Below are positions 25,688 to 63,634 of a DNA stretch of 64,000 nt, piece after piece (positions within the stretch are counted from its first letter, which is position 1; every line of letters starts with the position of its first letter). Under the pieces are notes generated by a model, which did not search any database, had not been told where the DNA came from, and saw nothing but the letters and a program-made list of their open reading frames with translations. Position numbers and translations under genes: made by a program. The stretch spans positions 3,782,001 to 3,846,000 of the forward strand of contig OZ017746.1 in the NCBI GenBank assembly GCA_963969365.1. The letters run 5' to 3'. The DNA comes from Asterochloris sp. CNOR1. Lineage: Eukaryota; Chlorophyta; Trebouxiophyceae; Trebouxiales; Trebouxiaceae.

Positions 25688-25718
25688 GCACTGTCACATG
25701 GGCTCCGCTCCAAGTGAC

Positions 25719-27381
25719 TTAAGGACTGTGAAGCACCTGTCTTTTAGGACTGTAAAGCATCTGTGCGGGCATACCCAACATGGCGCCAGACAACATTATT
25801 GCGCCCTTAAGGGGCTGCGGAGCATGGTGAACAGGCTCAGTGCTGTAGCTCACGGGTGTCGGGATTGCTGGGTGAGGCACAGGCAGCTGCGCTGCAGCAA
25901 CAGGCATGCACTGGGACAGCACGTGCCAGGGCAGAAGGGAAGTAGTGACTGCAGGGTCCCAACCGCTGGTGATGCACACAGCAGCTGCACTGAACATAGC
26001 TGACCTGCCGCTGGCTGGCCCGGGGCTGCCCTGCGCCTCAGGCACCACCCAGGCAGAGCATCTGTTGCGCTGCAGAGCGAGCTCTATGGACTGCAGGATG
26101 GCGGGAGCCTCCTGCTCACAGGGGTTGCCTGCAGCACATCCTCTGATGCGTGATCGTGCAGCATTCTGACATGGTGCATCACAAATAGCACCTCTGCAGG
26201 CACCTGCTGCCAGACAGCCCTGCATGCTGAATGGGTAGTCTGCCTGGCAGCAGGGCTGCACAGCCCAGCGCAAACAGCCACGGCTCCAGTCTGCTGGCTG
26301 AGATGCCAAACGGATGTCCAGTGACGATTGCATAGCTACCAGCAGCCCCCAAAGGCGCAAAATCACCAGACAAGTCCAGGGCTGTCAGCCTCCCTGTGCT
26401 GCTGCGCACAGCCTGCAGCAGCGCCTGAGCACCAGCAGCTCCAATGAGGTTCCCTGCGGGTGCGCAGTGCATGCTTGCTGTCAGCTGGCTGTAAGCAGCA
26501 GTCACGGCATTCCTACCAGCACAGCAGACACCTTGAGCTCAACAGCTGCAAACCCTGTTTGCAAAGCAAGGTGGAATGCAGGAACGCCAGCCTCTGTCAC
26601 AACATAGTGTAACGACTGTGACGGCTTGCATCACATACCCTTCGCTCATGAAGACAGCATCATCGCAGCTTCAAGAAGAGGAGAGTTGAGGCCTGTGAGG
26701 CAAGCAGGCAGGCAATACTCTTTGCATCCTCACCTGGCAATTCCAGTCCAGTAAGGGAAGTGTTTGATGCAAGGCTGTCTGCCAGAGCCCTGGCGTCAGC
26801 ATCCCCCAAAGAGCAGCCTGCAGCACAGGATGCTGCGGCTGGTTGCTCCCCAACAGTTGCCATTTGAGCTTTGCCAGGCTCTTGCGCAGCAGCGCTGCCA
26901 TGTTCAATCAGATAGAGCACAGCAGATGCAGAAGCAAGCAATGTGCTGGCTGGCCCCGATTGCTGGACTCTGCTGAGTGGGCGCAAGCTGGATCTGGGAG
27001 TGCAGTCACCTTCGAGCCTCAGACAGCCAGAGTAGCTGCTGTATCCAAGCTTTGCCAGGGCTGCCACATCCACCTCTGAATGCTTCAGCACCATTCGCTG
27101 TGAAGTGGGCGGGGCTGCTCTGCCTGCCAAGACATCCATGACCTCTGAGACATTTGCCATTGGGTTATGTACAGTCTTTGTCCCAACCACAACTGAACAC
27201 CTGCAGAGTCACAAGGGCCTCTGGCCTTCACTGGCCGTGCAGCAATGCTAGAGGGTGCATGTTGACGTGCAGCCCTTGCCAATGGACCCCCTTCGGCAGG
27301 AGGCCTTTGAAGCAGGCACCCAGATCCTGTAGACTGAACGGACTCAAGGGTCAAAACACAGTGCCGAAGACGCTCAGTCAA
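25719..27381 (-). CDS. Leucine-rich-repeat protein (ribonuclease-inhibitor type)
   Basis: Five exons (complement): 27201-27381, 27010-27144, 26734-26817, 26367-26453, 25719-26128; about 298 aa. Two consecutive exons each encode one LRR unit in the same phase (1 to 1): DADARALADSLASNTSLTGLELPG and GAAGAQALLQAVRSSTGRLTALDLSG. A third exon begins with the usual LRR end GNPCEQEAPAILQSIELAL. One repeat per exon is typical of the ribonuclease-inhibitor subclass. The N-terminal ~100 residues are Ala/Arg/Pro-rich with no recognised domain; the C-terminal ~100 residues look disordered. The last exon may be shortened by a donor near 26017 (GGCAG then gtcagc), so the C-terminus is uncertain. Its stop lies only 31 bp before the start I chose for the next - strand gene, so one of these two ends may be wrong. 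Function unknown; protein-protein interaction is the family norm. Confidence 0.62.
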
Positions 27382-34285: not shown

Positions 34286-37200
34286 TTATGACCGGTGTTG
34301 TGCAAGGTAGCGCTGCACCTTCTCCTCAGCAAACTGCTCAATCCTTTGCCGCGTGGCCTCCCGACTGATGGGTTTGTGCACATTCTGGCGCTTGCGGTCA
34401 TTGTGCGCCTGCAGGCAGGGGGTGTCCTGCTACGTGAACCAGGTTGTTGGCGGACAACAGCTTGTCAGGATGCCTATGGCCGATGCCTCTGTCAGGTGGT
34501 TCATGGCTGTGTGGTAGTGTATAGAGCGGCAGAGACAAGCCAGGCTGCGACTGACTGCTGGACATTGAGCTGATGGCGTGAAATCAAGGCAGGCAGTCAA
34601 GAGTCAGGCTCAGCAGCAGATTGTGGCTTTGTCCTGCCCAGGCATCGCAGTGGCATGCATTCTGTAGCAAAAGGCAGTCTCCAACAGGCACAGCAGCAGG
34701 CGGCCTCAGAGGGTTGCTGAAGTCATCACAGCAGGCAGCCATTGCAGCAGGCACCCCCTGTGGTAGAGCCTCTCTGACAGCATTGCTATGTGGGGCAGCA
34801 GCAGCAGGCAGTCACCTGAATTTCCCGCTCCAGGATCTCCTTGCACAGCTGTTTGTACAGGGCTGTGGCACGATCCTGGCCGACATAGCGCAGGCCCCCC
34901 TTGCTTTTGAGGGGCACCAAGCTTTGCTTGACAACCAGCTTGACAAAGAAGGTAAACTTCTCATCAGGTGCTGCCCACTCGTCGGGTAGGATGACCTCAT
35001 CTGCAGCAGCATGGCAGGGAGCTGGAATGTGGTCTCACAGACTTGCTCGGCGATGCCCACAGCAGCTGTTTGATGTTGGAAGGGGAGCACAAACAGACCA
35101 GCGGTCTGCCACCCGTGTCCAGAATGCGGCAGGGGCCGAGCGCAGGGCCTTCATGTCACCTGAAACCTACACAATGCACAGAAAGAACATGCCAGCTGCT
35201 GGTACTGAAGCCACAGGGACTCAAGGCAGGCTGCCTCAGTGAAGTGGACCTGTGCTGAGGCCGCTCAACTGGACTCCGGGTGTGCTGCTGCTCCCTTTAT
35301 GGTCGCCTCCCCCTGCCTTCAGGCCCAGCGTAGTCAGCAAACATAAGCGGCTGCCTACCTGGATCCATTGCTCTCCCCTCCTCACCTTCTAGTGTCTGCC
35401 AACCCCAGCCCGCTAAATTCTTTTCCCCTGCTGCCAGGCCAGGTCAAGTCCACACCCACCACAGACCACCCACCTGGATCCTTGGTGCGCCGCTGCCCAT
35501 TGCGGGGCATCTCCCCCTGCTGCCGCGCGCTGCCCGGCCGAGAGCCCGGCAGCGACCCTGCTGTGGGCGGGGCGGCAGCGCTCCCGCCGTTCTGCCAGGG
35601 GGTGCCCGCCTGGAGCGGCGGCGGCTGCTGGTACTGCTGCTGCAGGCGGCTGCCTGCCAGGGACAGAGCCCCTGGGTTGCTGACGCCACCAGCAGCACTG
35701 TTGTCTTGCAGGGCGCCCTGCCAGCGGCTTGGGTCCACCATGCCTGCCGCCCCTGCCGGCTGCTGCAGGGGGTTGTTGACTGGGGAGTAGGTCTGATGTA
35801 CAGGGGGGCTGACGTGGATGCCATCCAGATGATGCTGGGGTGCCGCTGAGGGGGATGGTGGGGCGCTGTGGCCGTACACCCCATTGGCAAAGCCAGTCTC
35901 CATGTCGAAGGCTGCTGCTGGCACGCCCTCTGGACCTGCAGGAAGCCAGCCCAGGCTTGAAAGTATAGATGGCCGCTGAGTGTCGCATGCCATGGATTAG
36001 GTGGATATGTGGTACTGTATGGAATCAGCCTGCCCTGGCAATCTGCATTTGCAGCAACAGGGCAGTGTACCACCTTGAGCAGTGCAGAATGGCCAGGAAG
36101 GGGCAGGTGGAGGCACCATGTCCAGGACAACTCAGGCCAAGCAAGCAGCGCCCTGCCCTACAGCAATGTCTGGGCCAGCAGATGCATGCATGTGCACTGG
36201 TGCCTGCTTTGCATGGGACACATGCGAGTCTCCGCTGGGGCCTGCCTTGCATGGGAGGTGTTTGAGTAATGCAGAAGCGGCTGGCCATAGACTCTTCACA
36301 GTGACCTTGTGTGCACGCCCTTTGCTCTGCTAGGGTCTCACCTGACAGCACCACTCCTGACAGCTCCTCAGCAAGGGGAGGGGGAACCTTTGCCGCCTGC
36401 CCTACACGGGGCATGCTTGGTGTGCCTCCAATACCTGCAGAGAGGACATCAGCATGAGCCAAGCCATTGCACAGCAGCAGCTGAAAGAAGCCATGCCTGC
36501 ATGACAGTGCATCCCTGCTTGTACCAAGAGACAGTGAGCACAACAGATCAAGATGCTGCCAGCTTTCTCCTGCAGGCCTGCAGCACCATATGTGCTGAGC
36601 AAGCAGAAGCAAGACCCTACTCTACAGGTGTAGAGCATGACCACATAGAAAGATCGACTGCTTCTTGGAGTACTTCAAATTGCAAAGCACATGCGAAGAG
36701 CACTGCCTCCAAGTGTCCTAGGATGCCACTGTGGTAGCAGCATGTGCAGAAGAGGGAAGCGTCAGGCCCGTCACCTGGCGGCAGCGACAGTCCTTGGATG
36801 CTGGCGGGTGCCTGTGCCCGGCCGCCAGCTGTGGGCACAGCTACAGCATCCCTGGACGGGCCCTGCGCGACGACGGGAGCCTGCTGCACAGCTGTGGGCC
36901 CTGCTGCGGGCACCTCCCCCTGCTCCACATCCTCAAACTTCCGCTTGACCCGCGCGCTGGGGGGGCGCGAGGCGGAGCTGCCAGGGGCCTGCTGCACGGC
37001 AGCAGCCTGTAGAGCAGGGGTGAGCCAGCAAGTGAGCTCGACAGGGGAGTGCAAGCAGCGCTGGAGCTGGCTGTGCGGCGCGCAGTAGAGCCTCAAGGAG
37101 GAGACGACAGTAAGCGCTGAGTTCTGAGATTGGTCCAGGAAGGGCTCAGCAGTTGATGCATGGTGCACCTACCTACATAGCCACAATCCCACTGCCAATG

Positions 37201-40200
37201 TGAGACAGCCTCTGCATGGCAAATAGCATTGAAACAACACATCTGGAGCCTCGCACTGCCACCTGCCAGGCTCTGGACTGCAGGCACAGCAAGCTAGCAC
37301 GTCACCAGAAGGAAAGGGGCTGACCTGTCTGGCAGAGGAGTAATCTGCTGCCGGCGTAGCAGCAGGCTGCGCGCCAGCAGGCTGCGCACCAGAGGGCGTG
37401 GTGGCGCTGCCCAACTGGACTGGCGGTGGCGGCAGCGGACTGTTGTGCCCCGGCAAAGAGGCCGAGTGCAGACGGTGCAAGCGCTGAGCGCCGCCGGCAG
37501 GCTGCAGGGCAGAGCACTGAGCACACTATGGTGGTGCTTGCGGGAAAGGTGGTTGCAGTGCACAATCGCACAAGACCCCAAGCACGGGCAGAGCATGCTG
37601 CAGATGAACAACACGTGAGAGAAGGAACACACCGACCAGACTGGCAGAAAATAACTTGTGGCCCCTTGATCATGCAGGCTGTGAAGTGCAAAGTAATGCA
37701 AGCACTTCACGACCACCAGACCCCAGGCTGGCCGAAGTCATCAGCAGCACTCACTGCCATGTCAGGCCCCAGACCTTCCAGCAGAGCCCAGCAAGGCGAA
37801 GCACAGCACTGAAGCCCTGTCTGGACAGCCCCTGCACGAGGCCCCATCACCACAGAAGCATCTCCGTGGCACAGGTCTGCACAGCATCAAGAGCAGCAGA
37901 ACCTCACCGCCACCGCCAGGTCCGCGCCTGGGCTCCCCCCCAAGCCGCCGCTCACGCGGTGGGGCAGCGGCGTTCCCACTCTGCCATCCCCTGGCACGGC
38001 TGCTGCCGCGTGGTCCCCTCTGGACAGGGGCATTGATGATGCATGCAGCAGCCCCGGGCTGGCCTGCGCTGGAGAGAATCCCGTCACCCTGCTGTGGCTG
38101 CCTGCCTGCACTGTGTGGTACCCGGGCGTGTGCTGGTACTGCCCATACTGCGCCTGCTGCCCGCCCCTGCGCTGCACGTCTGAGTTGTAGCGGGACGGCA
38201 TGGGCTTGGGTGACTTCCAGTGGCCTGCAAGGGCAGTGAGAGGCATTGATGGAAGCATGATGGGAGCACTGGCACACAAGACTTGCTGCTTGATGGCTTC
38301 AGCAGGTTCTGGTCCATTGCAGCGGTCTGCAGGGGGACCCACAGGGCACTGCCAGCAGGTTGCCTCCTAGTTTGGCAGCTTGCAGTAGCCGGCAGAAAGT
38401 GTACACGGGATTGCTGGGAACAGCTTACAGGAAGTCAGTGCCAAGAAGCCAAGAGTGCCCGGTAGCTGGGTGCCTTGTGTTACTGCCTGGTCGCCTGTGA
38501 GGTGTGCTGGAAGAGGAGATCACCAGAAAGCAGCAGGTGCAGCAGTCATCAGCTGCCGATCGGCCTGGGAAGTTGCAACTGCCTAGCGCTGTGCAGGTGT
38601 GCAAGTCTGCAAAATGCATTCTGCAAATCACACATAGTCAGCCAGGTGCCATCACCCTGCTGACAGCAGGCCATGGCAAGCTCCCCTCCTCCGGTCTGCT
38701 TTGCAGGAGGGACGGCAGCGGAACTCACCTCCTCGGCTGGGGTAGACCATTCGAATGTCCCGCGCCTCTGGGGGCTGTGAACACAGCTCCGGCTTGTGGC
38801 GCTCCAGCAGCTGCTGAGCCAGTGGCTGGAACTGCGTGTCCGCCTGCACCATGCAGCCAGGTAGAGAAAGAGCGCTGGTGGGTGATGGTCATGAAGGTGC
38901 GGCATCTGCTGGCACCACGCAGCCAGGTGGAGAGTAAGCACTGGCTGGTGGAGGTCATGAAGTTTTGGCATGCTTGCACCATGCAGCCAGGTAGAGAGGG
39001 AGTGCTGCTGCACGAGGTAAGGGCACGGCACACTTGGGCTGGCAGCCAGGGACACATTGAGCGCTGCTGCAAGGTGGGAGGCAGCCCAATGCAGTTCATT
39101 GTGAGTTACATGCTGGCATGCATGCTTGCAACGTTGCAGCCAAAAACCCGATTAGCGTTGGTGCAACAGGTGAAGGCATGGCACAACTGCGCCATGCAGC
39201 CGGGAAGAGAGGAGCACCTGAGCAGAGGCTGGGAAAGCAAGCAGGCATGCCAAGAGCCAAGGTTGTGTTGCCACCAGCTGTGCCATTGGCGCAGAGACAG
39301 ACTCACCGCAACCCTGCCATGCGCCACCCGCAGCCTTGCCAGCTGGGCAAGAGCGGCAGCAAAGGACCCCTGGGCTGTGCGGGTGTGCCAGATGTCATCC
39401 GTGGTGAAGGGCAGTTTGAGGGTGATCTCCAGCATTTTTCTCACTGCCACGCTGAACTGGTGCATCTGGGGGCCTAGGCACCGTGCCAGCACTGTCTGCA
39501 GCTGCCGCAGTAGCCCACACCTCACGAACACCTGGGGCGCCCTGCAGCAGGGCCACATCCAACCCTGAGGGGATGTGTTCTTGTTGTTGATGCAGGCAGT
39601 GGCAGGCGTGGCTAGCATCTCACAGACCATGCGCCTAGAGTCAGGAGCGCCTCAGTGACAGGAGGCATGTCATAGTGACAGCACCATGTAAAGGCTGCCT
39701 GTGCGGGGTGGATTCACTGCATAGAGAGCCTTGCAGGGACAGCTTTGCAGGGACAGCCTTCTGGCAGGTAGGCGAGGCGCGCCACAAGAGGAACACTGCC
39801 CAGACTTGAGCAACTGCAGGTCTCTGGCTGGTGCAGCTGCCAAACTGCCGACCCTGAAAGTGTGCCAGCTGTTGACACCCGAGGCAACTGCTTTGTACCA
39901 GTCACCAGAAGTGGCCATCAAGGACTCCCCACCACTAGGACAAGCCGGCTGGTAACAACCAGACATCTCTGTGCCAGGCAGGCCAAGGCAGGCACTCACT
40001 GGCCCTGGTTGGTTGCCAGGATGGTGTTCAGTAGCAACACGAGGTCAGCTCGCCGGGCACTCTGCCGGGGGGTCAGCTCCAGCTGCACCCCTGTGGCATC
40101 GTGCGCGGGGGCTGGCACAGGCGGTGGCCGGCGCTCCCCGTCCTCAACGTCATCCTCTCTGCTGCTGCTGCGGCCTCGGCGATCCCGGCCCCCATCCCGT

Positions 40201-43200
40201 GACCTGCTGCGCCTCAAGCGCTGCCTACCTGGCCTGCACAAAAAGTCGTAAGCTGAAAATTGATGTGCTAGAGGCCGGGCACACAGATCAAGCCATGATG
40301 AGGCTGAATCAAGCACGGTCTAATGCGTGCTAATGTACTATAGATGCACCTCATTCCCTGAAACTCTGCAGCACCTTGGTCATGCCTTCAGGCCATGTCA
40401 ATCGGTGCACACCTGTCCTTGCTCTGACGCTCTGCTGTTCTGAGCATGTCAAGCTCTGGCCCATCCTCAACTCCCTTCTCAGGTCGACTGGAACTGGCCG
40501 CAGATCCAAAAGGCTCCTGCTGCCTGGCGCCATTTTGTGTGGCAGGACCCTGCAGTGCAGAGCGATGGAGGCTTCATGGGATCTTGCTTGAGCTTGGAAC
40601 GTATTGCAGCTGCAATGCATCCGCACTGTCCCAAGGCTGGCCTGTGGTCACCAGAGCCGCCCCTGCTTTGCAGACAATACGTGCTGAGCTCCCCGTAAGG
40701 TTGGGGCTGCCAAGCACAGTGACAAGGAGGGAGGAGGGCAGATGTGCCGCACCCCTGCTTTGCGCTTTATGCCCAGTCTGGACGCGCCAGATGACTGGCT
40801 GCAGTGCCCTCTCACCTCAGCCTGCCCGCCATCTGTGCTGAACAGCACCACCGGCTGCGGCCGCCCGTCTGAACCTTGATCCGTGAGGGGCCGTTTGTGC
40901 ACAGGGCTGATCTCAGCAGCTGTGGTGGGCCCCACATCGCACAAGTTGAACAAGCGCAGGAAGCGCAGGATGCCCTGGGGGCTCACATCCCGCAGCACGT
41001 CGTGGGACTTGAACAGCAGGAAGGACAGGCGGCGGTCCACCTCGCTGCGGCGATCGCTCACATCGCGGCGCTCAAATCTGTCCAGCTCCCGCTGGTAGGC
41101 CGACTGCCTGCAGCATGGCAGCGGGGCTTAGTGAGAGTCACTTATCAGGGAGGCTAGGGACCAGAAGGGCTGGAGAGCTAGCTTTGGAGTTTGGCGCGGT
41201 CACTCACACTGCAGCACCCGCTGGCAGGCGGCCAGCCTGTGTTACAGAGGAGAATGATGTGCAAGAGACAGAATGCACTATCTGGAGGCCATGGATAACA
41301 AGTGGGTGTATGCCTTGACTCTTGCTGCCAGGCACACAGGCAGCCCAAATCCTTTTTGCTGTTGAGGGAGAACAGGCAAGACAGACAAGTCCCCATTGCC
41401 GCACTTGCAGTATCGCAGGGCTCATGTGTGAATCAACTTGTGAGCAGGGGCTTGCAGCTCAACGTTCATAGCTGGTTTGCCAGCTGTATATTCAGGTAGA
41501 AGAAATCAACCCTGGCCATCAGGGATGTGGCAGCCGTGCATTCTCTACGGCTCTGCTCCTCGCTTGCTCTCAGCCAGTTCAGCACCTGCTAACCCTCACA
41601 ATACACACCAGAACCCTGCCGCTCATGTGAAAGCAGCCTCCAGCGGAGCGGTGGCGTCACTCAGCCTTTCTCCCCTCGCAATGCTGTGGTGTCACTGACT
41701 CGTTCTTCAGGACAAGGCCCCACAGGTCTCCGCATCAGGCAGTCCTGAGGGCGTGCAAGCCCCCATGTCCCAGCCTGTCTCAGACCTCAAGGCTGTTGAT
41801 GTCAGCACATTGTAGCAGCACAAAGGTGTGATGTGCCCACCTGGCAGTCTCCTTCGTGCGCCGGGGCACGCTGGTGGCCCCTCCCTCAATCCGCGACCCT
41901 CGCCGCTCAAGAGGGCGCTGAGCGGATGAGCTGCTGGGGCTGCTGTCACGCATCTGCTTCAAGCGCTTGCGCCCCGGCACATTGACGGCTGCTGCTGCCG
42001 ACGTGTCGGCCTGGGCCTTCACGTGAACCCTGCAAGCAGCAAAGACGGGCTCTTGTGAGAGCACTGGCGTGTGGCAGGACTTCTGGAGTCAAGCGCCTGG
42101 CCGCTGCTGTAGGCCGTCATGGTGTGAGCCATCACACAGAGCTGGTCAAGCAGGGCTGCAATCAGACTTGTCACCAAGACAGACAAGGGAGAGTTGCAGC
42201 CTTGGAAGCCGCATGACAACCTCCAACAGTTTCAGAAATGGGTAGACGTGGCTCAGCGCCCTGTTGTACAGTCCTTACATGACAGGCTGCCATCAGGCAG
42301 ATTGGGTCTCCACTTACTCTGAATTGAGCCAAACCAACATGCAAACCATGTGCAAGCAGGCGCAAGCCCCTGTCTGAGGCAGAGGTGGCCCTGTAGCGCT
42401 GCCTATTGGGCCTTGACTTGCAGCGGCAGGCACATCAGCCACGCCCAGGTGGGCAGGTTTCTGCAGTCCCTGCAACATCAACCCCTCGCTGCCAGCATGG
42501 CCTGAGAAGCACTGACAGCGAGGACCTGCACCTCACCTCAGCAGCATGCTGTCATCTGTGCTGATGGAGCACCGACAGCAGCGTGCTGCACATCCAGCCC
42601 AAAGTACCCTCACATGGAGCAGCAGGCACAAACCTGCAGACTGTGCTTGATGCGTGAGTGCACCCCTGCAGCGGCAGACCCGTGTTCACAAATGCTGCAT
42701 GCCCTACCTCTTGGCAGGCCGCCTGGACCCTGCCTTGCCCCGCGGCGGCTGAGCAGGCAAGTCAGCCTCTGTCTGAGTCGACTGCTCTGTCTCTGCATCA
42801 CTCAGAATACGCCCTCCGTCCGCCTGGGACTTGGAGCCCCGGCTCTCCTCAGCATCATCCTTGCTGTCTGCCACATCCCACTCCAGGGGGATGTTGTGTT
42901 TGGCAGCCAGTCTCTGCACCCTGCAGGGGTCAGTAAGCTGCTGAGGTGCATTCTGTGCTTAGCACGGCAGCCTGGGGCATGCAGGTGCCTGCAGACTGCT
43001 CCCACCCCAAAGCAAAGGCTCTGGACAGTATTACCTGCTGGGGGACTTGCGCGTAGCAATGTGCTGCTGAGCAGCATGCAAACAGGAAGGCAGATACAGG
43101 TGACAGCCAGGATTGGTGTGTTGTAGACCAGAGACAGGGCAGGCTGAAATCCTGTGTGCTATAGCGCCCCACCTCTTGGCCCGCAGGCCCACATTGGCGT

Positions 43201-46200
43201 CCAGCAGCCTCTACTGACTGCCTCGTCAACAGGTCAGGCACCCATTCTGCTGCAGATGCACTGCCCCCCATCTGGCAAATGATGAGCCCAGCCTTGAACC
43301 CCTGCGCATCCTGTTATCCCACTTCTGTGCCCGCAGCCGCAGTTTAGGTCCAGCAGCCTTTCTGACGCACAAGCGCAACCTGACTTCCTGTTGGTGTGCT
43401 TGTTCCCATCTGCAACCCCTGCTATGATTCTCTTCTGAGACCTGAGCCATACTAAAGGCAGACCTGCTCACCGCGAGTGGCGGCGTCCCACCTTCTCTGC
43501 TCGCAGCCTCGATCCAGTAACCTCCAAGGCCCCTTTGCACACAGGCACAGCAACCAGATGCACCCCAGCTACCTCTGAGCCCAGCCTCACCTCCTGCGGG
43601 TTGCGTTGTCCCACTTCTCTGCCCGCAGCCCCACTTTGGCGTCCAGCAGCCTCTGCACCAAGCCATCCTCCTCATCCTCACTCACCATGATGGGCTCAGG
43701 CTCATCAGAGACGTCTGAGGCAGCATCCACGTCCCTGCAGGCAGGGGGGTGGCAGTCTTTACAGACAGCCCCTGTTTGCTCTACCTGAAGGCAATGGCTG
43801 GCAGGGTGTAGACATAATGCATGGCAGACTCGCAGTTCCAAGGTTCAGGAGGTAAATGAGGCAGCATGCTCAAGGATGGGGCCATCTGCAGGACAGATGT
43901 GTGGCACATTGCAGGCAGCCTCAAGCTGAAGTTGTTGCTGCTGGCAACCAAGCAAGCGTTGCAGTCAAATTTGGCAAGTCTGGGTGCCAGGCTGCAGCTG
44001 GAAGCTCTGTGGGTCCCTGATGCAGTTCAGTACAGCTCACTCTGCCTCTGATGGGTCAGCAGCCCCTCTCTCTGTCGGCGCCACACCGCCTATGACGCCT
44101 CGGCAGGTCTTGGACCCGCACAGGCACTTGAGGGGCTGCACCAAATAGGGTGCATGGGTCAGTGATCTGAGCTCACTAACAACAAACATCACAGCACCCT
44201 TGCCGCACATGCCTCCTTGCACGTTGGCTGTGGCCCTATAGCCCTATAGCCTGCAACCCCAGCCAATAGACTCAGAGCCCAGTGCTGACTCTCACAGCCA
44301 GCAGGCATGCTTGGCACACCCAGCTCTGCACAAAGCAGCAGAGCTGCCTCTCTGCCCTGCCAAGCTGTTGCAATGCACAGCCAGTGCCATGCAAGGCTGC
44401 CCACTGCTGCGACTGCAGGCCAACATTGCCAGTGTTGAAGTCCACTGACCTTGTCGCCATAACGCTCAAAGTTGTAATCAAATGTCAGCTCGGTGCCTGC
44501 TGGCACGGCCTTCAGAGTAAACAGGCCAATGGCCAGCTCCCCCCTCACAATCCACTTCTGCGTCTCGCAGTTGGGGCTGCAGGAGTGATTGATGAAGCGC
44601 CCCAAGCCGCCCTGCAGGGACGGCACTGTTTGACTTGGTGCAACCCCGGATTGCTCATCAATTTGATTATCTGTGTGCTGTCTGCACAGAGTTGGGGCTG
44701 CTTGTGTCCAGTATCATGCGCTGCAGTTGGGGCTACAGGAGTTGCTGATGTGTTGCCCCAGCTTGCCTTGCACAGGTGGGCAGAGGCGTTCTATGTTGTG
44801 GCGCAGACTGTGGTAGGAGGCAGCTCCCTGCATGCTTTTGGACCAAAAAGCATGTTGAGCATGGGGCCGCTCAGAGCGTCCCACAGGGGTGCACCTTGGC
44901 TTTATCTAGATCCTGAGATGTGCAACCCTCAACTGGCATGCAGCCCACCCTTCACGCAACTAACATGAGGCCAGCCACAAGTGTGGGAGCCACACCACAT
45001 GGCTGCTGCAGGCTAGCGTCAGCTGGCTTCAGGTGAAGCCCAGCAGATTGCTGGATCTCATGCTGCAAGCCCCCTCTCACTACCCTGACTGCTTCAATGA
45101 CCTCCCCGCTGCCCTGACCAAGCAGGCATCGCGGCTGTGCAGTCAGAGCATACTGTTCAAAGCTGGTGCCAATCCCCATCTGGTTTGCCAGCAGCAGCAG
45201 CAGGAAGGCGCTGGCTGCCAGCTGACATGCTGCAAGCCCCTTCCTCACCATCCTGGCTGCATCGATGACCTCCCCATTGCCCACATTCATGAAGTAGTAG
45301 TGGCGCTGTCCTGTGGCTATGTAGTACTCCTTTCTCCTGAGATACTCAAGGTCCTCCAGCACCTGCAGGCAGTATTGAGGTCTTGGTGACGGCCTCTTGC
45401 ATGTTGCCCTGCACGTGAGGGGCGTCGGCAGCATTGCCTCCAGCATGCCTCCCTCGTGTATGTTCGGAGAACTTGGCTGCCTAGAAGCTCAGGGGCTGTT
45501 TGGGGGGCTGATAACAGCAGCAGGGGCTCCAGCCACCCTCTGACCAGAAGCAGCTGCTGCTTGCAGAGGAATGCAGGCCCATGCAACGGTAGTGGAGCTG
45601 CTGCAGCAGTTGTCAGGCCATTGGCGATGCTTTCAGATCCCTCTGACTGTCCCTCACGGAGGGAGGTGGCAAGCGCACCTCGCCAATGTACTCTATCACA
45701 AACTGTCCCTCCTTCAGATCCTGTTCTGCAAATAAGCCGAAGCCTTTCTGGCCTGCCCGCTCCTGCAGGGGGTTATAGAGACATGTCAGCTCACTCAGCA
45801 TATGGACCTGCAACCTCTCCAGCTTTTCTCTGGTCTCAGGGCTTCTGAGTGCTCAGGGCCCCACTAAAAATAACATCTGCCAGAGCCGCACTGCACACCG
45901 CACTGCACAGGCCGTCCTGGCTCACCGTCTTTATCTTGGCATACCGCTTTCTGGCAAACATCTGGTTGCTGCACTGCTCTCCACATGGGCACCAGTCCTG
46001 CAGCAGCCAGTCAAGTGTCAGCCAAAGTGCACAACCAACTCAATGAGGAACACTTGTGGGCAAGGCTCCTGTTTAGGCAGTCCCCTGCAGCCTGGCCGTC
46101 CATCAGATGGCACTGTGCAACGGGGATTCCCTTTGCAGTCGCCACATGCCCCTTAGACTCTCAGCATGTCACCTTCTCAGCCTGGTCCTTGAAGGCTGCC

Positions 46201-47749
46201 TCAAGCATCCTGCCCACTCACTGGGTGGCACTCCTGAGCAAGACTTCTGTTGAGGCAGTCCTCCCCGCAGCCTGGGCGCCCATCAGATGGCCGCTTGCAA
46301 TTGCAGATCATAATGTCGTCCTCCTTCTCCACTTTGGGGGCCCGATGAGTGATGATGTTGCCCTGCACATGCTGCCAGATGGCCGGCCTCTTCTTGCTGC
46401 GCTTCTGCAGCAGCAGCAGTCGAGGACTTGAGGCCAAGCAGGCGGCACCACAGGGCATTGGTTGCAGACCAAGTAGTATGGCCGCCTGAACATGCTGCGC
46501 GATGACTGGGCGTCTCTTGCTGCAACTCTGCAGCAGGGAATGGGAGGAGTTGCAAATGGTGTGGGCAGCGTTGCCCTGTGCATTCAAATGCTCCCCTGCT
46601 GCCAGACAGCAGGCCGCTTCTTGCTCCGCTTCTGCCGCAACAGCAGACATGTTGCAATGAGGATGCTCGCCTGGACATGCTGCCAGATGACAGGCCACTC
46701 CTTGTTCTGCTATTGCAGCAGTTGGGAGGTGAGCTGCAGGCATGTTACAGCATTTGCTGCGTGGCATATGATGCTCCCCTGCATATGCTGCGCACTTTCG
46801 AGGCTACAGACTCCGCACCAATGTGCGGCATGCAACTAAGCCTGCTATAAAGGTGAAGCGCTGCAATGCGATGGGCAGCAGCAGGGGCTGGGGATAACTG
46901 CAGGCTATGCAGTGCGTGATCCTGCATGTTTGGCTGATCGTGCAGCCCACCGGCTGCCACATTCCTCGCCGCTGTTGCTGTAGAAAGCCAGCACTGCAGG
47001 TCATGCACTGTGTGACCTCAAAGCATGGCCTGATGCTGGGCCACCTCCTGCTCTGCATCTATTGCCGCAGCGCAGCAGTAGGCGGCGAGCCAGGTCAGCC
47101 AGATAGCGTGTGCTATGCGATTGGGGCCAGTCTCCCCTGCAATTGCTGCCAGATGTGCGAGGTGCCCCTAGCTCAGCAGCCAGGCACAATTATTATCTGC
47201 AAACCCATCTGGGGTGGGAGGGTGCAAGGTTGACGTGCATGTGCAGCCCGCACAGGGCAACGTCAGACTGTACAGCTTGTGCTGCAGTGACAGGAGGAAG
47301 GCGCAGGCTGCTGGGTGCCCCCCAAGCAGCTTGTGACGCCTGAGCATCACTGTAAACGCTCTGGCCGCCGTCAGGAAACAGCATGCAGGCTGCAGGGCCA
47401 CTGCGGAGCCTCACCAACTCCAGGGCTTCAGCGCGCCTGAGCTCCCTGTCAATGTCGTCATCTGACAACTCCTGCTCAATGCTGCAGGTGTTGAACTTGG
47501 TGTCTGGGCTCATACTGCAGTACCTACAACGAAAACTTGCGCTGATCAGTCCTCTGGCATGCACAGGCGCAGCAGGAGGACAACTAAAGCGCTCCCGTAC
47601 CATGGCTGCGTCTCATCAACAGCAGCATGCTGCTGCCTGCTGAGCCTTCTCCACTTGCTACAGGCCTCGCACTGCACCCAGAGAGACCCAGCAACCTCGT
47701 TTTTGGGCATGCTGGGAGGTTGAGCTTGCAGTGAAGCTGAGCTTTCCAT
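34286..47749 (-). CDS. SET-domain histone H3K36-type methyltransferase with CW finger and SRI-like C-terminus
   Basis: Twenty-two exons (complement): 47601-47749, 47415-47523, 46222-46362, 45926-45997, 45679-45762, 45249-45362, 44450-44611, 44041-44135, 43591-43734, 42708-42920, 41841-42029, 40816-41107, 40000-40220, 39307-39541, 38729-38843, 37908-38224, 37325-37501, 36775-37006, 36342-36434, 35474-35935, 34816-35000, 34286-34408; 1307 aa. In order: a CW zinc finger ([14 protein letters not shown]50, C52, C63, QELSDDDID), which reads H3K4 methylation; an AWS Cys cluster ([31 protein letters not shown]); SET ([59 protein letters not shown] with catalytic-site Y269); and post-SET ([11 protein letters not shown]). 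Residues ~491-740 are helical and resemble the TFIIS-N-like part of plant ASHH2/SDG8. Residues ~1206-1307 ([48 protein letters not shown]) look like an SRI domain, which binds the RNA polymerase II tail. The role should be H3K36 methylation during transcription in the nucleus. A further small exon between 46363 and 47414 is possible. Confidence 0.92.
38847..39020 (-). repeat. Tandem 64-66 bp intronic repeat, about three copies
   Basis: Copies at 38847-38912, 38913-38976 and 38977 to about 39020 (partial) share the block CACCATGCAGCCAGGTAGAG and a GGTCATGAAG segment. On the - strand each copy is a polypyrimidine tract plus acceptor-like end; the lowest one directly abuts exon 15 (38729-38843) of the methyltransferase. 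A fainter copy lies near 39190. The array sits in intron 14. Confidence 0.8.
43166..43660 (-). repeat. Junction-echo array: four copies of the end of methyltransferase exon 9
   Basis: The coding 3' end and donor of exon 9 (43585-43660, [20 protein letters not shown]) recurs in the following intron at about 43468-43530, 43293-43365 and 43166-43220. Protein-level traces such as [18 protein letters not shown] are legible in the 43293 copy. Intervals are about 120-175 bp. Copies have indels and substitutions; the 43166 copy keeps the core GGCGTCCAGCAGCCTC (on +) intact. Confidence 0.85.
44572..45280 (-). repeat. Echoes of both junctions in one intron of the methyltransferase
   Basis: Intron 6 (44612-45248) has an echo at each end. 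The exon 6 end and donor (45225-45280) has a copy at 45058-45112, still readable as [13 protein letters not shown] against [13 protein letters not shown]. The exon 7 start and acceptor (44572-44620) has a copy at 44718-44775. Both copies are degenerate. Together they fill a good part of the intron. Confidence 0.8.
46038..46735 (-). repeat. Echoes of the AWS exon 3 edges
   Basis: Exon 3 end (46222-46310) has a decayed copy at 46038-46115 in intron 3, sharing GGCAGTCC--CGCAGCCTGG and CCATCAGATGG. On the other side, the acceptor and intron end (46360-46430, with TGCTGCCAGATGGCCGGCC) recurs in intron 2 at about 46480-46540, 46590-46645 and 46665-46730, and more faintly near 47020-47060 and 47140-47165. 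Confidence 0.7.
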
Positions 47750-54807: not shown

Positions 54808-56263
54808 TTAGACGGAGCGCTCCTCAGGGGCACGGAAGTCCCTGGCAGATGAGGGCCTGTGGACCAGGAAAGAGCTGACCTGCACCTGCCTCACGTTGTC
54901 AAAAGCGACCAGCCTGATGTAGGCGTTGGGGAAGGACTTGGTGGCGTTGGAGATCTCAGTCAGCACCTGCAGCAACCATTGGGCAGAATGTAGAGCACAG
55001 CCAGTGGCAGCTGGAGGTGAGGCAGGCACACAGAAGGGCTCCAAAGTGTGCTAGGCGAACAGCACAGCCAGGCTGAGCAGGCAGGCAGAGAGCAAGTGCA
55101 ATATGTGGAGGTAGCTGCTAAAAGCTTTGAAGGCAGGCTGCAGGCTTTACAGGCAGGCTAAAAGCTTTACCGACAGGCATCGTGTGATCACAAGGCACCA
55201 CCCCTGGGCTTCTGCTCAAACAGCACTGCTTCACCTGAAGGCTGCACGCATGCCAACCTGGCTTCAGTGGTGCAGCAGGGGCTGCTGCCTCACCTGGCTG
55301 GGGTCGGTGCAGCCAAACATGGGCAGCTTGTACATTGTCCAGTAACGGTTGTCAATGTAGTTGGACTGGTTGGTGCCGCGCACACGGATGGAGCTGTCGC
55401 TCTTCACGTATGCGAACTCAGGCTCGGAGAACTCCAGGCTGCAGACAGCCGCGACTTGAGCAGGTCAGAGGGCTGCATCAGACAAGCTGGCTGGAGCAGC
55501 CCACGAGCCAGGCAGCGGGCCGCATACTGCAGCCCCCATTTTACTGCTACACTGCTACCACATGCGTCGGTGCTGGCTCCCTCAAAACCATCAGCTTGCT
55601 GGCAAGACAGAAGTTGGGCCGGCAGGCAGGCTGCAACAGAGGAATGGCCCAGAGAAGCAGGGTGGGCCACTTGCACCCACTGCAACTGTCGCCCAGACGC
55701 AGACAAGGCTGCTCAGGCAGATTTGCTGGTTCAGCAGACTCCAGAGAAGACCAGGGTGCACCCCGAAGCCAGGTTGCAGAGCCGGTTACGAGCCGCCAAC
55801 CGGGGCCCGGCGGTACTATCTGGCCCGACCGCGCAACTCACCAGGGCACACGGCCGTTCTGCACGATGTAGTCCACCTGCTTGGAGATCTGGTCGGTGGT
55901 CAGAGGAGGCAGGAAAGACAGGGTCTCGAACATCCTGCAGCATGAGGGCACTGGGCTCAGCAGCCGGCCCCAGGTGTGATCCGTCCAGCTTGAGGCCTGC
56001 CAGAGGCCTGGGCACGCCACCTAGAGCCTGCAGACAGGCTGTGGGCCCCTGAGCAGGCTGGGCCTGTGCGGGTCATGCGCAGCCACTCACTTGTTGTCTG
56101 TTGGCTGCCACACCATCATCTGCCTGGTCTTGTAGCCATTGGACACGGTCTTCTGGGCAAACTTGTTCTGCACCTGGGTGAGGGCAGGCCTCAGGGACCC
56201 CTGGCGGGGTGCAGCAGCCCTGACGGCGACTGGGGCGGTCTTAGCGCTCAGGCAGGTCTGCAT
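54808..56263 (-). CDS. RBCS: Rubisco small subunit precursor
   Basis: Four exons (complement): 56091-56263, 55842-55934, 55294-55438, 54808-54966; 189 aa. The product assembles with the plastid-encoded large subunit into Rubisco, the CO2-fixing enzyme. Residues 1-48 form a chloroplast transit peptide ([20 protein letters not shown] at the start). The mature protein begins near MMVWQP and shows all family landmarks: [66 protein letters not shown] and the algal C-terminus RPSSARDF ending in RSV. The loop between the first strands has the longer algal form ([16 protein letters not shown]). All phases are consistent. It is the only copy in the window; algal genomes often carry more. Confidence 0.97.
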
Positions 56264-56682
56264 GGCGACTAGTTGTGTGTAGCTGAGAAGAGGGGGGGCT
56301 GCTGCACCAGGAGGAGAAAGTGAAGGAAGCAGATAAAGTGATCTTTTCCTATTGATTGACCTAGACCAGATGGCTGCTCGGCGGTCAGTTCTGACTGGCC
56401 TCAGGTGGAAGCAAACATCTGGTCAAACCCTCGGCTTGGGCTGAGTACAGACCTCTGAGCTGAGATGGCAGCAACATTTGACTCCAATGCCTGTGTCCCC
56501 AGGCTCCTGGCTGCTATGGGAAGACTGCGCTGAGGTGATTGGGAGTGCAGCTTTCACGGACAAAGGCTTGTACTCTGAGCCTGCATCAGCCCTAGATGAT
56601 CATCAAAAAGTGCATTCTCTCTTACATGATGAAATTTGGCCTTCAGACACGGGGCAATGGGGGCATTCAGCAGTGGCTGAGA
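56264..56682 (-). promoter_or_regulatory. RbcS upstream region
   Basis: These 419 bp lie between the RbcS ATG and the stop of the Nup88 gene, so they hold the RbcS promoter and the Nup88 3' end. A G-run lies at 56292-56298. On the - strand a CTTTATCTG stretch (56331-56339), about 70 bp before the ATG, might be TATA-like or a light-responsive GATA-type box. This is a weak suggestion. Confidence 0.35.
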
Positions 56683-59600
56683 TCAGGGCAGCTGCACAGG
56701 CTGCTGAGCGTGGACAGCTGCAACTGCATCCTCCACCAGTCTCAGGCTCTCCAGGCAATGCCTGATGCCTTCGTCCTGAGTGTGCAGCATGTCGTGGCAG
56801 CGTATCAGAAGCGCATCTGCAGGTTTGATGGGTGACAGCCTGGCACGCCTCGCCTTCGCTTGCGTGACAGCTCCGTTTGCCGCCCCTTTGAGTTGCTGCA
56901 GGCAGGCACTGTGCTGAGAGACCTGCCATGTGCATGCAGAGCAGCAGTCAGTGGCCACCGCTTGGCAAGGGCAATGTGGGACCTGTCTCTGACTCACTGT
57001 CACGTGTGCTTTGACAGCACTAGCCTGCTCTTCCAGCTCTGGCAGCTGCCGGTCTCGCAGGTCTGCCTCAGCCTGGCTGAGCTGCCCCGAAAGGCCCCAG
57101 TGCAGAGCTGACAGCTCAGTCAGCCTGTCTTCCATGATGCTTTGCAGCTGCACACACAGACGGCAGTCTGTCAGCAGCACGTGAAGCACGTGGCCTACAC
57201 AGACCGCATGCGGCTCCTCCAGCTGGCAGCCATGCACATAAACGATATGCAGGGCAGCACCTGGCCACAACCCACTATACATATCATGTGTACTCATCGC
57301 ACTCAGGGCTGGCTGGCGCTGGCTTGCCCAGGGAGCTATTCCTGGCGGGCAGCATGTTGCTCAATGCAGTGCTGGCAGTTCGCTGCTCTCTGGCTGGCAG
57401 CAACAGGAATGGGTGAATAGTCTCACCTCTCGAGCAGCCTTCAGCCGCTGAACAATGGCCTGCTGCTTGTCCTCGCACTCCTTGAGGGCCACCTGCTGCT
57501 GCCTAGCCTTGGCAGCAGAGTTGCCAGCCTCAGCATGCATTTCCTCCAGCCTCTGCGCCAGCCGCATCAGGACTGTCAGAAGCAGGGCTGCCAAACTGTG
57601 AAGCACATACATGACTTGCAGCCATGCTGCGTGCGTCTAGAGAAGTAGCAAGCCTCCTCGCCTGTTTTCATGAATGCAATTTTAGACATCGGCATGCCAG
57701 AACAGGCAGGCCCTTCCCTGATTACGTCTTAGCACTCTGCATGTGGAGCTGCACAACCTTGCATGTCTGTGCGCCAAAAGTGCTGCGCCCTGCCCACCTG
57801 CTTCAGATCATGGTTGGCGGTGTGAATGTACAGCACATGAGCCTCCCTGAGCTCCTTGATGCTGGCAGCCAGGAGGTGCTGACCCTCAGGGGTTTTGGAT
57901 CCTGTGGGCCCCGCTGCCTCAGGCATACGTAGCAATCCAGTGCCTGCCAGCAGCTCCCCATAGCGGCTCTGCAGGCTGCGGCTGATCTCTGCTGGCACAT
58001 TGCCTGCGCGGCCCAGTGGGCTGAGCAGCTGCTCTGCCACCTGCACACAGTAGTCAATTGGAAGGCCACCCTGCCACTAACCCGCATTCAGGGAGTGGCC
58101 TGTTGGAGAAGTGCATCACTGATGTAGCAGGCTGCAGAACCTCTGCCTCAGGCATGAGTGGCGCATGACGCATAACAAAAGACAGGGCGATGACTAAGCC
58201 ATGCGTCCAGCTTCATCAGGCAGGCCCCAGATCAGGCGCAGCAACAGACTGGCAGATGATCACTCAGCAGGCATGGACTAGACCTGCAGGGCAGCAGAGT
58301 GCGCCTGTGGGTGCAGCCAGCTGGCGATGCCATCAGCTGTGACAGTCACCAGCACGGCCTGCGTCCAGCTGTCCCCCACTACAGCTGCCCCCACAATCTC
58401 TGCACCTGCAGCAGAGGCAGTGCCAGGCTGGGTAGCAGCAGCCTGCTGTTAACATCATCTCGGCTTGTCACTGATTTTGGGAACGGCAGCATGTCAGGTG
58501 CGGGCTGTGCAGAGCACTGTGATGATGTTGCGCGTGTACATGGCAGCCAGCCCCCTCTCCCCAAAGCTGTGCAAGCAGTGCCCATTTCCAATCGACTGGA
58601 CGGCGGCTGCTTCAATGGGATCTGCCCAGTGCCACAGGCGCCTTACAAACCAGCAGCAGTGGTGCACAGCTTCTCCTCTGTGGCAGGGGGCAGGTGGCTG
58701 AGCTCCTTGCCACTGACACCTGCCAGGTGGGCAGCCAGCACTGGCAGCCAGGGCAGGGTCAGCACATAGGCGCCTGCAGGAGAGCAGGGGATGCTGAACT
58801 TGGCATTCCACAGGGTGCAACACAAGCCCTGCTGCTCAAGGCCATTATACACAGCTTGGCTTCAGCAACGGCAGGGTATGCAGGCGCGCTGCAGCACGAA
58901 AACTGCAGCAGCCACTGGACCGGCGTGAGCATGAGCACTGGACCAACGTGAGCATGGGGGCTTTCGAGATCACCCCTTGCACGACTTGTACTGCAGCAAT
59001 TCCGGCAGGTGTTTCTGCAGCCGGCATGCAGCTACGGCAGCACCACTGGGTTCAGCGTGCTGCAATCGACACTCAGCTGATATTGAGTAGCAGCTGGGAC
59101 AGTGCCACTGGGCTCACCGCGCTGCAGGATGCAGAAGATCTGCTCAGGAACTGCGCTGGCTGCCAGCAGGGCAGGTCTGCTGTGAGCTAGTGGCACTGCA
59201 GCCCCCTGCAGCTGCAGGCAGTCCATCTGCAGCAGCGAGAGGGTGTGGGAGGGCTGCATGCGAACCTGCAGGTCCACAGTCGAGTCAGCTTGCGGCGCAG
59301 GTGGCTTCCCTGAGAGAATGCAGGCAGGGGCACTTGCTTCACCGCCCCCAAAAAGCTGTGGCAGCTGTGACCACTTGAGGAGCCACATGGCTTCCCTCAG
59401 AGGTTGCCAGTATGCAGGAGCAGACAAACGGTCCACTGTCTCTGTCAGCACAAGGGGGAGCAGCAGTCACTTGCCGTGCAGCTTGACGCTGCTGCTCCGC
59501 AGCAGCTCGGCTGGCCTGGAAATGCCGTGCAGCAGCTATGACCACATGCAGCGGAGGCGAATGCGTAGCTGCATGCAGACTGCACCCCCTGCCAGGTCCC

Positions 59601-62600
59601 CGCTTGGTCTTAGCTGTCGGCATGCATGGGCATGAAGACTCACCTCTTGCTGGGTTGCCACTAAGGTGTTGCCGCTGAGCTGGCAGGCCGGGAAGCCTTG
59701 TGCAAAAGAGGGCTGGACATTGCCAGCAAGCACGAATGTCTGCGCAACGCCTGCTGCACTGAGTGTGACCACGGCTGTGCAGGCGTCTCCATACCTGCAC
59801 AAACACATGCAGTCATTGGGTTCTGATCATCCTGCCCTGAAGGGCCAACATCAAGTGCAGCCAATGAGCAGGCAATGCACATGAGCTCACAGTGACATCC
59901 TCACAGCTGCAAGCAGCTTGCCTGGTCACATGAATGCACTTGGCTGGGTCCTGGTGAGAGGTACGTGGAGCCTGATCAGTCTGCCCAGTGACCTGCAATG
60001 CAGCATCCTGTCACTGCAGTGATGGGCTGCAGGCGTTTGGTTCACAGCCAGGAGGACACAGCTTCGGCCGCCAAATCGGGGGCCCAGTCAGCAAGTCACC
60101 TCTAGGGGTCCTTGGAGTACAGGGATATCCGCGTCTAGGGCATGTGGGCAGGCCGGCACCAGAGCTGCCGGCCCAGACCTGTGCTGCATGTCTCCCAGCT
60201 GTGGAAAGGCCTGCAGGTGGCAGCACAGGGCACCCCTGATGCCACATACTTACATCTCCACAGCAGCATCACCCTTTAGGGGGTTGCAAAAGCTGCATGC
60301 ATCGTGCAGGAGGCAGGCACTGCAGCAGAGTGGGGCGAATGCATGGATGCTTGGCATTCACCGTTTGCAGCCAAGCCTGGCCCGTGGCGTTCCCCTCTGT
60401 GGTGCTTTGGAGTCTCGCCAGCTGGCTCACTGGGAGAGTGACACCAAAAGGGACGACAGGGCAGAAAGCCAGCACAGAACTGTCTGCACACACAAAAAAG
60501 ACCTGCACGCGCAGAGCAGCAGAAGGGTACCACTCCGGAAGTCTTCATCCAGCGGCATTGCTCACATCGAGCCAGGCCATGAACAGTGCAGGTTGCTGCA
60601 AGACAGCTGCGCTGAATGCCCAGCCAAGGCTGCCACAGGCAGGGCTGGGGTGCATGTGAGCGCCACACACCCTGTGCTTGGGAGCAAGTCTGTCGTAAGG
60701 TATACCTCAGCAGTCAAGGCATCTGTCGCTTGCTGGCATGTGCCTGCAGTCTCACCGTGAACCGCTCCCATGAGGATGAGGCGCCAAAGGCAAAAGCCAC
60801 AGGGCGAGCGACAGGGTTCTCGTCCTCAGCTGAGATTGCTCGCCTCCTGCAGCAGGCATGAGCTGGCCAGTCTTGTGACGCCAGTGCATTCCAGGAAGGC
60901 AGGCCTGCCGTACTGAGTCCAGCAAGGGTAAGCAGCATAGCACCTGGCTCTGCTGTGTGCAGCAGGCTTGCTGCTTGGAAGCCAGCAAGCGCAAGCATAC
61001 CTCCTGGCAGTAAGGAGTTCAGTCAAGACAAAGTGATCCCAGGAGTTTCAGGAGGCAGGCAGGCTGAGAATGAGCTCAACAAAGTGGCAAGGGACCCCTT
61101 GGCTGTGGTAGCAAGGCAGGCAGGCTCGCCCAGAGCTGCAGCGCTTGTACACTGTACAGAGCAGAGCATCCTGCCATGTCACACATGCAACATGCTGAGT
61201 TTGTCAAGCCTGGTTGCAGCGCACCAGCGTGGCGCCAGCTCAAAGATCTGCTCAGGGTCGCTGAGCCGCTCTGTGTGATAGAGGCGCCAGGTCTGGTCTG
61301 AGGTGAGGAGCGCAAAGTGGGTGTAGCTGCCTGCAAGCATGCACCATTGGGCTGCACTACATGCCCTGCTCAGGGCAGCATGCATGTGTCTGACTTCAGT
61401 GCCAGGATGAATTCTTGGGGCGCTGCTGCATGCTTTTGCACACCCCATTGGGCCAGGCCATTAGATGGGGCTGGCCTCAGCATTCTGCTCACTGACACAG
61501 CCTGGGGACGACAAGGACCAGCCTGTGGCGGAGGAAGGCCACCGGCATGGCAGTAGCAGGCATGCTGTCCCAGCAAGGACCAGAAGCGATGCCGCAGCGA
61601 CATTGGACGGTGCATCAGAGCCACGGAAGGCAGGATGTTGAATTGCATCAGTGAGTCGCTCCCCGGCACAGATGCGCAGGTGGGGTCTCACCTGGGTGCC
61701 AGGCTGCGTGGAGCAGCTTCAAGCCGGGCCGGCTGCTGAAGAGCTTCCTGTCTACTGGAAAGCTTTTACATTTTGCAGGAAGGTGGGAGGAGGAATGTGG
61801 TCTTCCTAGCTCCACTACAGCCACCTCAGGACTCTCCAGGCCCTGCAGTATGGAGTTACAGGGCCTGGTACAGTCATGAGCAGCACTGAGGCCTTGTTCC
61901 AGCAAAGTATGCTGGTGCTGCAGAAAGCAGGCCCCTGCTCAGCTGGCCGGTGCAGGTGTACAGGCACAGCTGATAGGGGGCAGCCTTGGTGTCATCTGGC
62001 AGCAGGGGCTGAGGCTGTTTGGTGCACAATGTAAAGCATTCGCACTGTGCGGGCAGCCTTGTGCAGCTGCCATGCCTCTACTTGTTGCAAGCCCCTGTTG
62101 AGCAGCCGGTGATTGCCGTGTGGTCTTGAGGCTGAAGTGCATGGGGCCGCAAGCAGCATGGCACTGCGTTTGAAGCCTGCCAGCATGCTGCAGGCTGGCA
62201 CTATGTTGATGAGACAGCTGCAGGCGTGCCGCACCTGGATCGTGCAGGTGCCGGTCACCAGCGCAAGGCTGCCGCCAGCATTGATGTCAAGCCAGCTGGG
62301 GCTGGCTGGCAGAGGCAGGACTGTCTCCAGCTCCTGCAACTGCAGCTCAGCTGGCGCCTCTTCCTGCAGCAGCAGTGACCTTCTCAGCTTCCAAACTCAC
62401 TTACTGCAGCAGGTGCACCTGCTCTGATTCAGAGCGTGTCGTCTACCTGGGATGTGCTGAAAGCCTCTCTTGCATCTACTCGCAGTATCTTGCCATTGGC
62501 CACCCCATATCTGCATGACAGTAATGCCTCAGTTGCATTCCAACTCTATGGTATTAGCTGTAGGGCTCTGAGGCCACTCACAGCAAGCCAGAGGCCTCAT

Positions 62601-62652
62601 AGGTCAGCAGATGGGGGCCTCTGCACCCCTTGAACTGTGCCCAAGCAGACAT
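56683..62652 (-). CDS. NUP88: Nucleoporin Nup88 / MOS7
   Basis: Seventeen exons (complement): 62582-62652, 62447-62510, 62235-62363, 61692-61842, 61225-61330, 60756-60846, 60362-60502, 60100-60210, 59922-59992, 59644-59794, 59118-59439, 58651-58773, 58405 down to 58284, 57798-58040, 57427-57552, 57004-57147, 56683-56895; 792 aa, near the 741-810 aa of animal and plant Nup88. Nup88 sits on the cytoplasmic side of the nuclear pore and tunes protein export. The N-terminal part is a beta propeller (SWLDINAGGSLALVTGT, LKLLHAAWHPGSYTHFALLTS, DPEQIFELAP, AFGASSSWERF, CADSSVLAFCPVVPFG). The last ~250 residues are coiled coil (RLEEMHAEAGNSAAKARQQQ, RLTELSALHWGLSGQLSQAE). All sixteen junctions keep phase. 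Intron 9 has a GC donor (GACCAG then gcaagc). The ATG at 62652 nearly coincides with the start of a + strand gene, so the first exon may need revision. Confidence 0.85.
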
Positions 62653-63407: not shown

Positions 63408-63634
63408 GTGTCCCTCACAACTGCTGAGAGCCGCCAAGTAGGTTGAAGCCAGCCCCCAAACCTGGTGCAGCACCGCGTGCCAGACTTTTGAATCAAGTGC
63501 TAGAGTTTACAACATGATGTGGCAGAATCGATTTTAGCAGGCATTGTGTGCCTTTACTGTTTGAAGAGTGTCATTGCAATGCCTCATGGCTTCTGATGGG
63601 CCTCCTCTGGTGATGGCCCCCATAGTACTCCGTC

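Follow-up and report, generated by a model that had tools for sequence, protein, structure and literature searches.

The 64,000 nucleotide (nt) window analysed here, from the green alga Asterochloris sp. CNOR1 (contig OZ017746.1, positions 3,782,001 to 3,846,000), belongs to a genome of 56.4 Mb in 21 contigs and carries on its minus strand a SETD2-like methyltransferase gene, whose product contains AWS and SET domains (Pfam) and has SETD2 as its top match among solved structures. Our subject is the origin of copies of exon edges that lie inside introns, of which intron 9 of this gene provides the clearest series. Exon 9 (43591–43734, minus strand), the source of these copies, was delimited by our own gene predictor and falls outside the homology-checked domain; its donor GT occupies 43590–43589, and intron 9, delimited by gene prediction and edge scoring, extends over 670 nt (42921–43590). 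Self-comparison confirmed that the end of exon 9 recurs in intron 9 as three decayed copies, all of them local and on the same strand, as the initial annotation had claimed: copy 1 at 43473–43508 (83% to 43596–43630, E 2e-4), copy 2 at 43283–43359, which includes about 15 nt beyond the donor (81% to 43576–43652, E 1e-13), and copy 3 at 43168–43212 (89% to 43610–43654, E 2e-11), which is part of a longer alignment of 43140–43212 with 43582–43654 at 75%. The lags of copies 1, 2 and 3 were 123, 293 and 442. Over the exon part, the three copies agreed with the real exon 9 at 0.65, 0.73 and 0.71 and with each other at 0.56–0.62, a star-shaped pattern that would follow from a frozen exon whose copies decay each on its own. 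The claim that every copied block spans the splice site held only in part: similarity past the junction was clear for copy 2 (0.49 over 51 nt) but not for copies 1 and 3 (0.33 and 0.31), and across the sample described below a lax alignment crossed the junction on the donor side in 26 of 31 matches and on the acceptor side in 22 of 24. A search of the whole genome with exon 9 plus intron 9 returned only the query itself, which for this intron argues against a dispersed element.

The frequency of such copies was assessed in a 343 kb sample that excluded L003, a duplicate of the window, as well as two overlapping loci, L038 and L048. Genes were predicted with a self-written two-strand gene-finding model trained on this sample, which was initialised with codon usage taken from domain-anchored exons together with a typed splice consensus (a AGGTGAGT-like donor and the acceptor TGCAG). 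The model predicted 75 genes with 789 introns, the median intron being 237 nt and the median exon 103 nt. Predicted 3′ splice sites were nearly invariant (T 92, G 95 and C 95%, AG being required by the model), and part of this invariance may be self-reinforced because the predictor started from TGCAG. Known errors of the predictor are a read-through in intron 7 of the SETD2-like gene and probable gene fusions; a Pfam domain check covered six of the nine predicted window proteins. In the edge test, 60 nt of exon edge were scored against the exon's own intron, with introns of other genes as the null, and the intron count at scores of at least 34 covers introns of at least 120 nt and exons of at least 30 nt.

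Local repeats were counted over 264 kb in direct and inverted orientation, with a first-order shuffle as control. The repeats were close together and predominantly direct: 149 direct versus 15 inverted at E<0.01 (3 versus 5 after shuffling), and 74 versus 1 at E<1e-4. Lags of direct repeats were mostly 50–300 base pairs (bp) and peaked at 75–100. Lags of 123–180 in the SET gene had looked regular and had suggested nucleosome-size spacing, an idea that was dropped in view of the position of this peak and the spread of the lags. At scores of at least 40, matches to the exon's own intron numbered 20 among 464 donor-side edges and 13 among 463 acceptor-side edges (null 0.00–0.01%), and none was found for the 464 and 463 reverse-complemented edges. 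Among introns of at least 120 nt, 53 of 624, or about 1 in 12, reached a score of at least 34 against a flanking edge (null 0.08–0.22% per edge); with the cut lowered to 26, the excess is 9.6% for each donor edge and 9.5% for each acceptor edge, which suggests about 1 in 5. When only exons of at least 150 nt were considered, the near ends matched at scores of at least 40 in 14 of 198 and 10 of 198 cases and the far ends in none (0/198 upstream, 0/198 downstream), which indicates that edges, and not whole long exons, were duplicated. The matches were to the exon's own intron and not to introns of other genes. Homology also extended into the intron part of the duplicated unit (mean z 10.2; the 95% null was exceeded in 17 of 52). 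The copies therefore carry along intron sequence from beside the exon edge, as in duplication at the DNA level, and this argues against copying from spliced RNA.

We propose, with a probability of about 0.72, that these edge copies are explained by frequent short local direct duplications in non-coding DNA, some of which cross junctions. Duplications with lags of mostly 50–300 bp would arise often in non-coding DNA and, with exons of median 103 nt and introns of median 237 nt, a duplicated segment within a gene would often cross a junction. The protein would stay unchanged if splicing kept the junction nearest the intact exon, while the other copy would turn into intron, lengthen it and decay. 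Continued use of the exon-side splice site would thus make junction-crossing duplications tolerable; we infer such use generally, with homology support at intron 7 and intron 45998–46221 only. Selection would freeze the exon copy, and divergence between exon and copy would proceed at about half the rate of divergence between two intron copies. This slower divergence may make exon-edge copies the best visible traces of a process that is itself general. The duplications could originate from error-prone repair of double-strand breaks or from slippage, either head-to-tail or with a spacer. A uniform model with 1.40–1.48 accepted duplications per substitution per site and per kb of non-coding DNA, a rough and model-bound figure, yielded 87 detectable pairs, against 101 observed.

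Intron 7 of the SETD2-like gene illustrates which splice site is likely to be used. On the minus strand, it contains at 45059–45114 a copy of the donor-side exon edge 45226–45282 (84%) and at 44723–44772 a copy of the acceptor-side exon edge 44567–44616 (74% over 50 nt, score 44). The predictor had bounded this intron at 44612–45101. Two SETD2 chains, however, skip query residues 120–168, the stretch that the predictor had called exon, and we therefore take the first donor to be genuine and the other to be a donor-like copy; with the SETD2 alignment the bounds were corrected to 44612–45247. A cryptic donor in the copy had thus misled gene prediction. Intron 45998–46221 (minus strand) similarly carries at 46035–46111 a copy of its donor-side exon edge 46213–46291 (78%), and the exons that flank this intron are nearly contiguous in the SETD2 alignment, with a one-residue gap. 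Across the sample, mismatch rates at the three codon positions were 0.194, 0.173 and 0.252, and the excess at third positions (P=1.3e-4) agrees with silent substitution within the exon. A net frameshift was present in 25 of 55 copies. Splice dinucleotides were retained in 10 of 26 copies for GT and 11 of 22 for AG, where decay alone expects 0.57 and 0.59; the pooled retention was 21/48 versus 0.58 expected (P=0.03). The copies do not look as if they were kept as exons or as splice sites, and the sites were lost slightly faster than by decay, if anything. The suggestion in the initial annotation that they form a stock of cryptic splice sites is not supported by these counts, whereas its proposal of a route for intron growth stands insofar as the copies decay as intron and add length, the growth itself being read from structure. 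In the same way, the process appears to lengthen introns and was not seen to create them. The surroundings of donors and acceptors in the 343 kb sample agreed in register at a mean of 12.19 of 40 positions versus 12.17 in the null; the highest identity was 22, with one case at 22 or more versus 0.65 expected. Intron creation by in-register duplication (the AGGT model) finds no support in this null-level identity.

Other explanations of the edge copies have to be set against local duplication. That the copies serve as alternative or mutually exclusive exons could be argued from those that retain GT and from the predictor's acceptance of the donor in the intron 7 copy; the frameshifts, the loss of splice dinucleotides and the absence of far-end copies in exons of at least 150 nt, which speak against copying of whole exons with both splice sites and an intact frame, make this very improbable. 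Dispersed intron-making elements (introners), which are reported mainly in fast-evolving lineages such as green algae (PMC9860276), would have to resemble the exon edge by chance; given that exon 9 plus intron 9, the one intron searched genome-wide, matched only itself and that edges match their own introns, we regard them as scarcely credible here. A closer contender is a variant of local duplication itself, in which nearby DNA is captured at double-strand breaks together with unrelated spacer instead of being duplicated head-to-tail. Proximal repair-mediated duplications are known in vertebrates, as outlined in PMC2671141, and between strong blocks of tens of nt there often lay tens to about 250 nt of sequence with no clear homology, many single pairs consisting of short strong blocks with an apparently unrelated spacer between them. 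Repeat pairs were made non-redundant before the tests of contiguity, as they were before the shifted-annotation, stricter-exon and forward-simulation tests below. Block and spacer lengths obtained by soft re-extension of the repeats were discarded as invalid, owing in one run to an overlap of the stretches compared and in another to overly permissive scoring; of the latter run, the comparison of in-register with out-of-register homology alone is used here. Several of the contiguity results weigh against simple tandem units: the register signal was absent 60–80 nt from the junction (z -0.4) and 60–100 nt before the end of the unit (z 0.8 and 0.6), 58 of 92 non-redundant pairs (E<1e-4, lag 60–300) failed to cover 40 nt or more of the unit, and flank homology exceeded the 95% null in only 14 of those 58. 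On the other side, in-register homology over the final 20 nt of the expected unit exceeded the out-of-register control (z 4.9), and clean head-to-tail cases occur, such as the 91 bp tandem duplication, 89% identical, at 63803–63983, at the end of the window. On average the evidence leans towards head-to-tail duplication; its serious competitor is that break repair captured nearby DNA, which we hold to be possible although somewhat less probable than not.

The remaining alternative is that duplication is targeted to junctions or favoured there, for example by splicing-coupled breaks, or that junction copies are kept by selection, and that this is a main route of intron growth. The initial annotation had likewise suspected a genome-wide process acting across junctions; local duplication of DNA across junctions did recur in many genes of the sample, but it was not specific to them. 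When matched segments of 60 nt were compared with 240 nt on one side, scores of at least 34 were reached by 7.8% and 6.8% of edges and by 4.8% and 6.1% of intron-internal segments, a non-significant difference (Fisher P=0.26) between sets that share some events, since the intron segments sit near junctions. Intergenic segments reached this score in 2.0% of 205 cases and within-exon segments in 5.6% of 71 (reverse complement, 2.8%). A segment-level simulation with uniform events and frozen exons predicted an edge-to-intron ratio of 1.23–1.58, and 1.03–1.28 was observed. Several other measures speak against events that are blind to junctions. Two-sided mid-intron segments gave fewer strong matches than edges, 6/505 at scores of at least 40, 13/505 at 34 or more and 62/505 at 26 or more, the edges reaching 30/464 (donor) and 21/463 (acceptor) at 34 or more and 63/464 and 61/463 at 26 or more. 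Repeats also overlapped exon edges more than shifted positions, as the initial annotation would have it, if modestly: 43 of 101 pairs straddled a junction versus 31.6 under shifted annotation (P=0.0125), with one arm exonic in 48 versus 41.7 (P=0.12), both in 21 versus 13.7 and neither in 32 versus 45.7. With stricter exon cuts of 0.05 (379 of 663 exons kept, 13 of the 101 pairs set aside as ambiguous) and 0.08 (244 of 663 kept, 32 set aside), the share with one exonic arm, counted among pairs with one or no exonic arm, was 0.59 versus 0.41 shifted (P 0.003) and 0.53 versus 0.31 (0/300 shifts), an excess of 1.4–1.7 fold; a cut of 0.15 was dropped as useless, as it kept 20 of 663 exons and left 4 pairs with one exonic arm and 32 with neither, 65 being set aside. 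In forward simulations on the predicted gene structures, the one-arm share was 0.38–0.46 overall and 0.39–0.46 with larger indels, versus 48/80 (0.60) observed once the 21 pairs with both arms exonic were excluded, and the straddling share was 0.24–0.31 with larger indels and 0.28–0.32 with small indels, versus 0.43 observed (P about 0.009 against 0.31). Uniform events and frozen exons thus account for only part of this excess. The gene models behind these comparisons are our own predictions from sequence. The residual excess at junctions, roughly 1.3–1.8 fold depending on measure and setting, may reflect annotation error, selection or a real bias. Because intron-internal segments are nearly as self-similar as edges, most of the signal needs no special junction process and random local duplication suffices, a modest bias at junctions being possible; a dominant junction-directed process seems unlikely to us.

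Local duplication that crosses junctions has relatives among known systems. In a potato gene, as outlined in PMC4974935, a tandem duplication across an intron-exon boundary turned a piece of an exon into intron. The likeness lies in the boundary-crossing tandem duplication, after which the exon piece of the upstream copy becomes intron sequence; the difference is that a new intron arose there, whereas here many genes carry decayed copies and no signal of new introns was found. Tandem duplication is also reviewed as a route of intron gain (overview in PMC3443670), and such gain shares with our cases an intragenic duplication that includes splice signals (PMC3443670, PMC4974935); unlike it, the edges described here were copied into existing introns, and the in-register comparison of donors and acceptors was null. 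The vertebrate repair-mediated duplications, which reach up to 619 bp and comprise 824 proximal events with 4 partial exon/intron donors (PMC2671141), resemble ours in being short and close and in sometimes copying exon-intron borders. Fill-in by Pol alpha-primase with end joining, described as a source of small tandem duplications in PMC8355091 and PMC5730883, is a candidate source of local direct duplications here. A literature search by titles and the beginnings of abstracts turned up no report of this pattern for any green alga, although this does not prove that none exists. What may be new is not the kind of event but how frequently decayed edge copies are visible in a single genome, and that they can serve as a reference. 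Dating the lengthening and turnover of introns is difficult for want of such a reference in intron sequence, whereas an exon is a nearly unchanged original, so that the divergence of an edge copy dates the duplication event; the copies are frequent enough for a quantitative study of intron turnover. A bolder extension, which we consider doubtful, is that intron sequence in this lineage stems mainly from local duplication, with enrichment at junctions linked to splicing or transcription, and that conserved edges provide a turnover clock. For annotation, the practical warning is that a decayed copy can mimic a splice site, as it did in intron 7.

Edge copies recurred in other genes of the window, in agreement with the initial annotation, four of the nine predicted genes having matches at scores of at least 34. 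The SETD2-like gene itself, on the minus strand, has further acceptor-side edge copies at 46655–46710 in intron 46528–46950 (score 45) and, more weakly, at 41195–41236 in intron 41108–41840 (score 35), and a weaker edge copy, found by repeat and edge comparison, within intron 35001–35473. In the predicted gene 18704–27094, also on the minus strand, 24697–24741 copies the donor-side edge 24892–24936 (82%, score 57) and 21294–21347 the acceptor-side edge 21097–21150 (80%, score 56). On the plus strand, a gene with FHA and TPR domains (Pfam) carries at 11676–11723 a copy of an acceptor-side edge beginning at 11885 (score 41), and the predicted gene 15922–18349 has at 17297–17333 a copy of the acceptor-side edge 17388–17424 (89%, score 42). 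A repeat of a 66 bp unit in 2.4 copies (78% matches) lies at 38845–38998 and adjoins predicted exon 38729–38843 of the SETD2-like model.

In the long protein predicted from 54808–63685, a Rubisco small subunit domain (Pfam) occupies the end, and the model is probably two genes fused by the predictor. The best structural match is a chain from Chlamydomonas, and the domain is in keeping with a green alga. A nearly full protein kinase domain (profile 3–263 of 263) was found at G000:C19:10167-10916 in a single open frame of 713 amino acids, pointing to an intronless gene or a foreign contig; the remaining kinase matches listed were, unlike this one, partial. At the ABC transporter locus L033, a 50 nt block is repeated at 1644–1693 and 1844–1893 with 92% identity, both arms ending at similar possible donors, and together with 1740–1786 this locus may hold three copies of one exon end.

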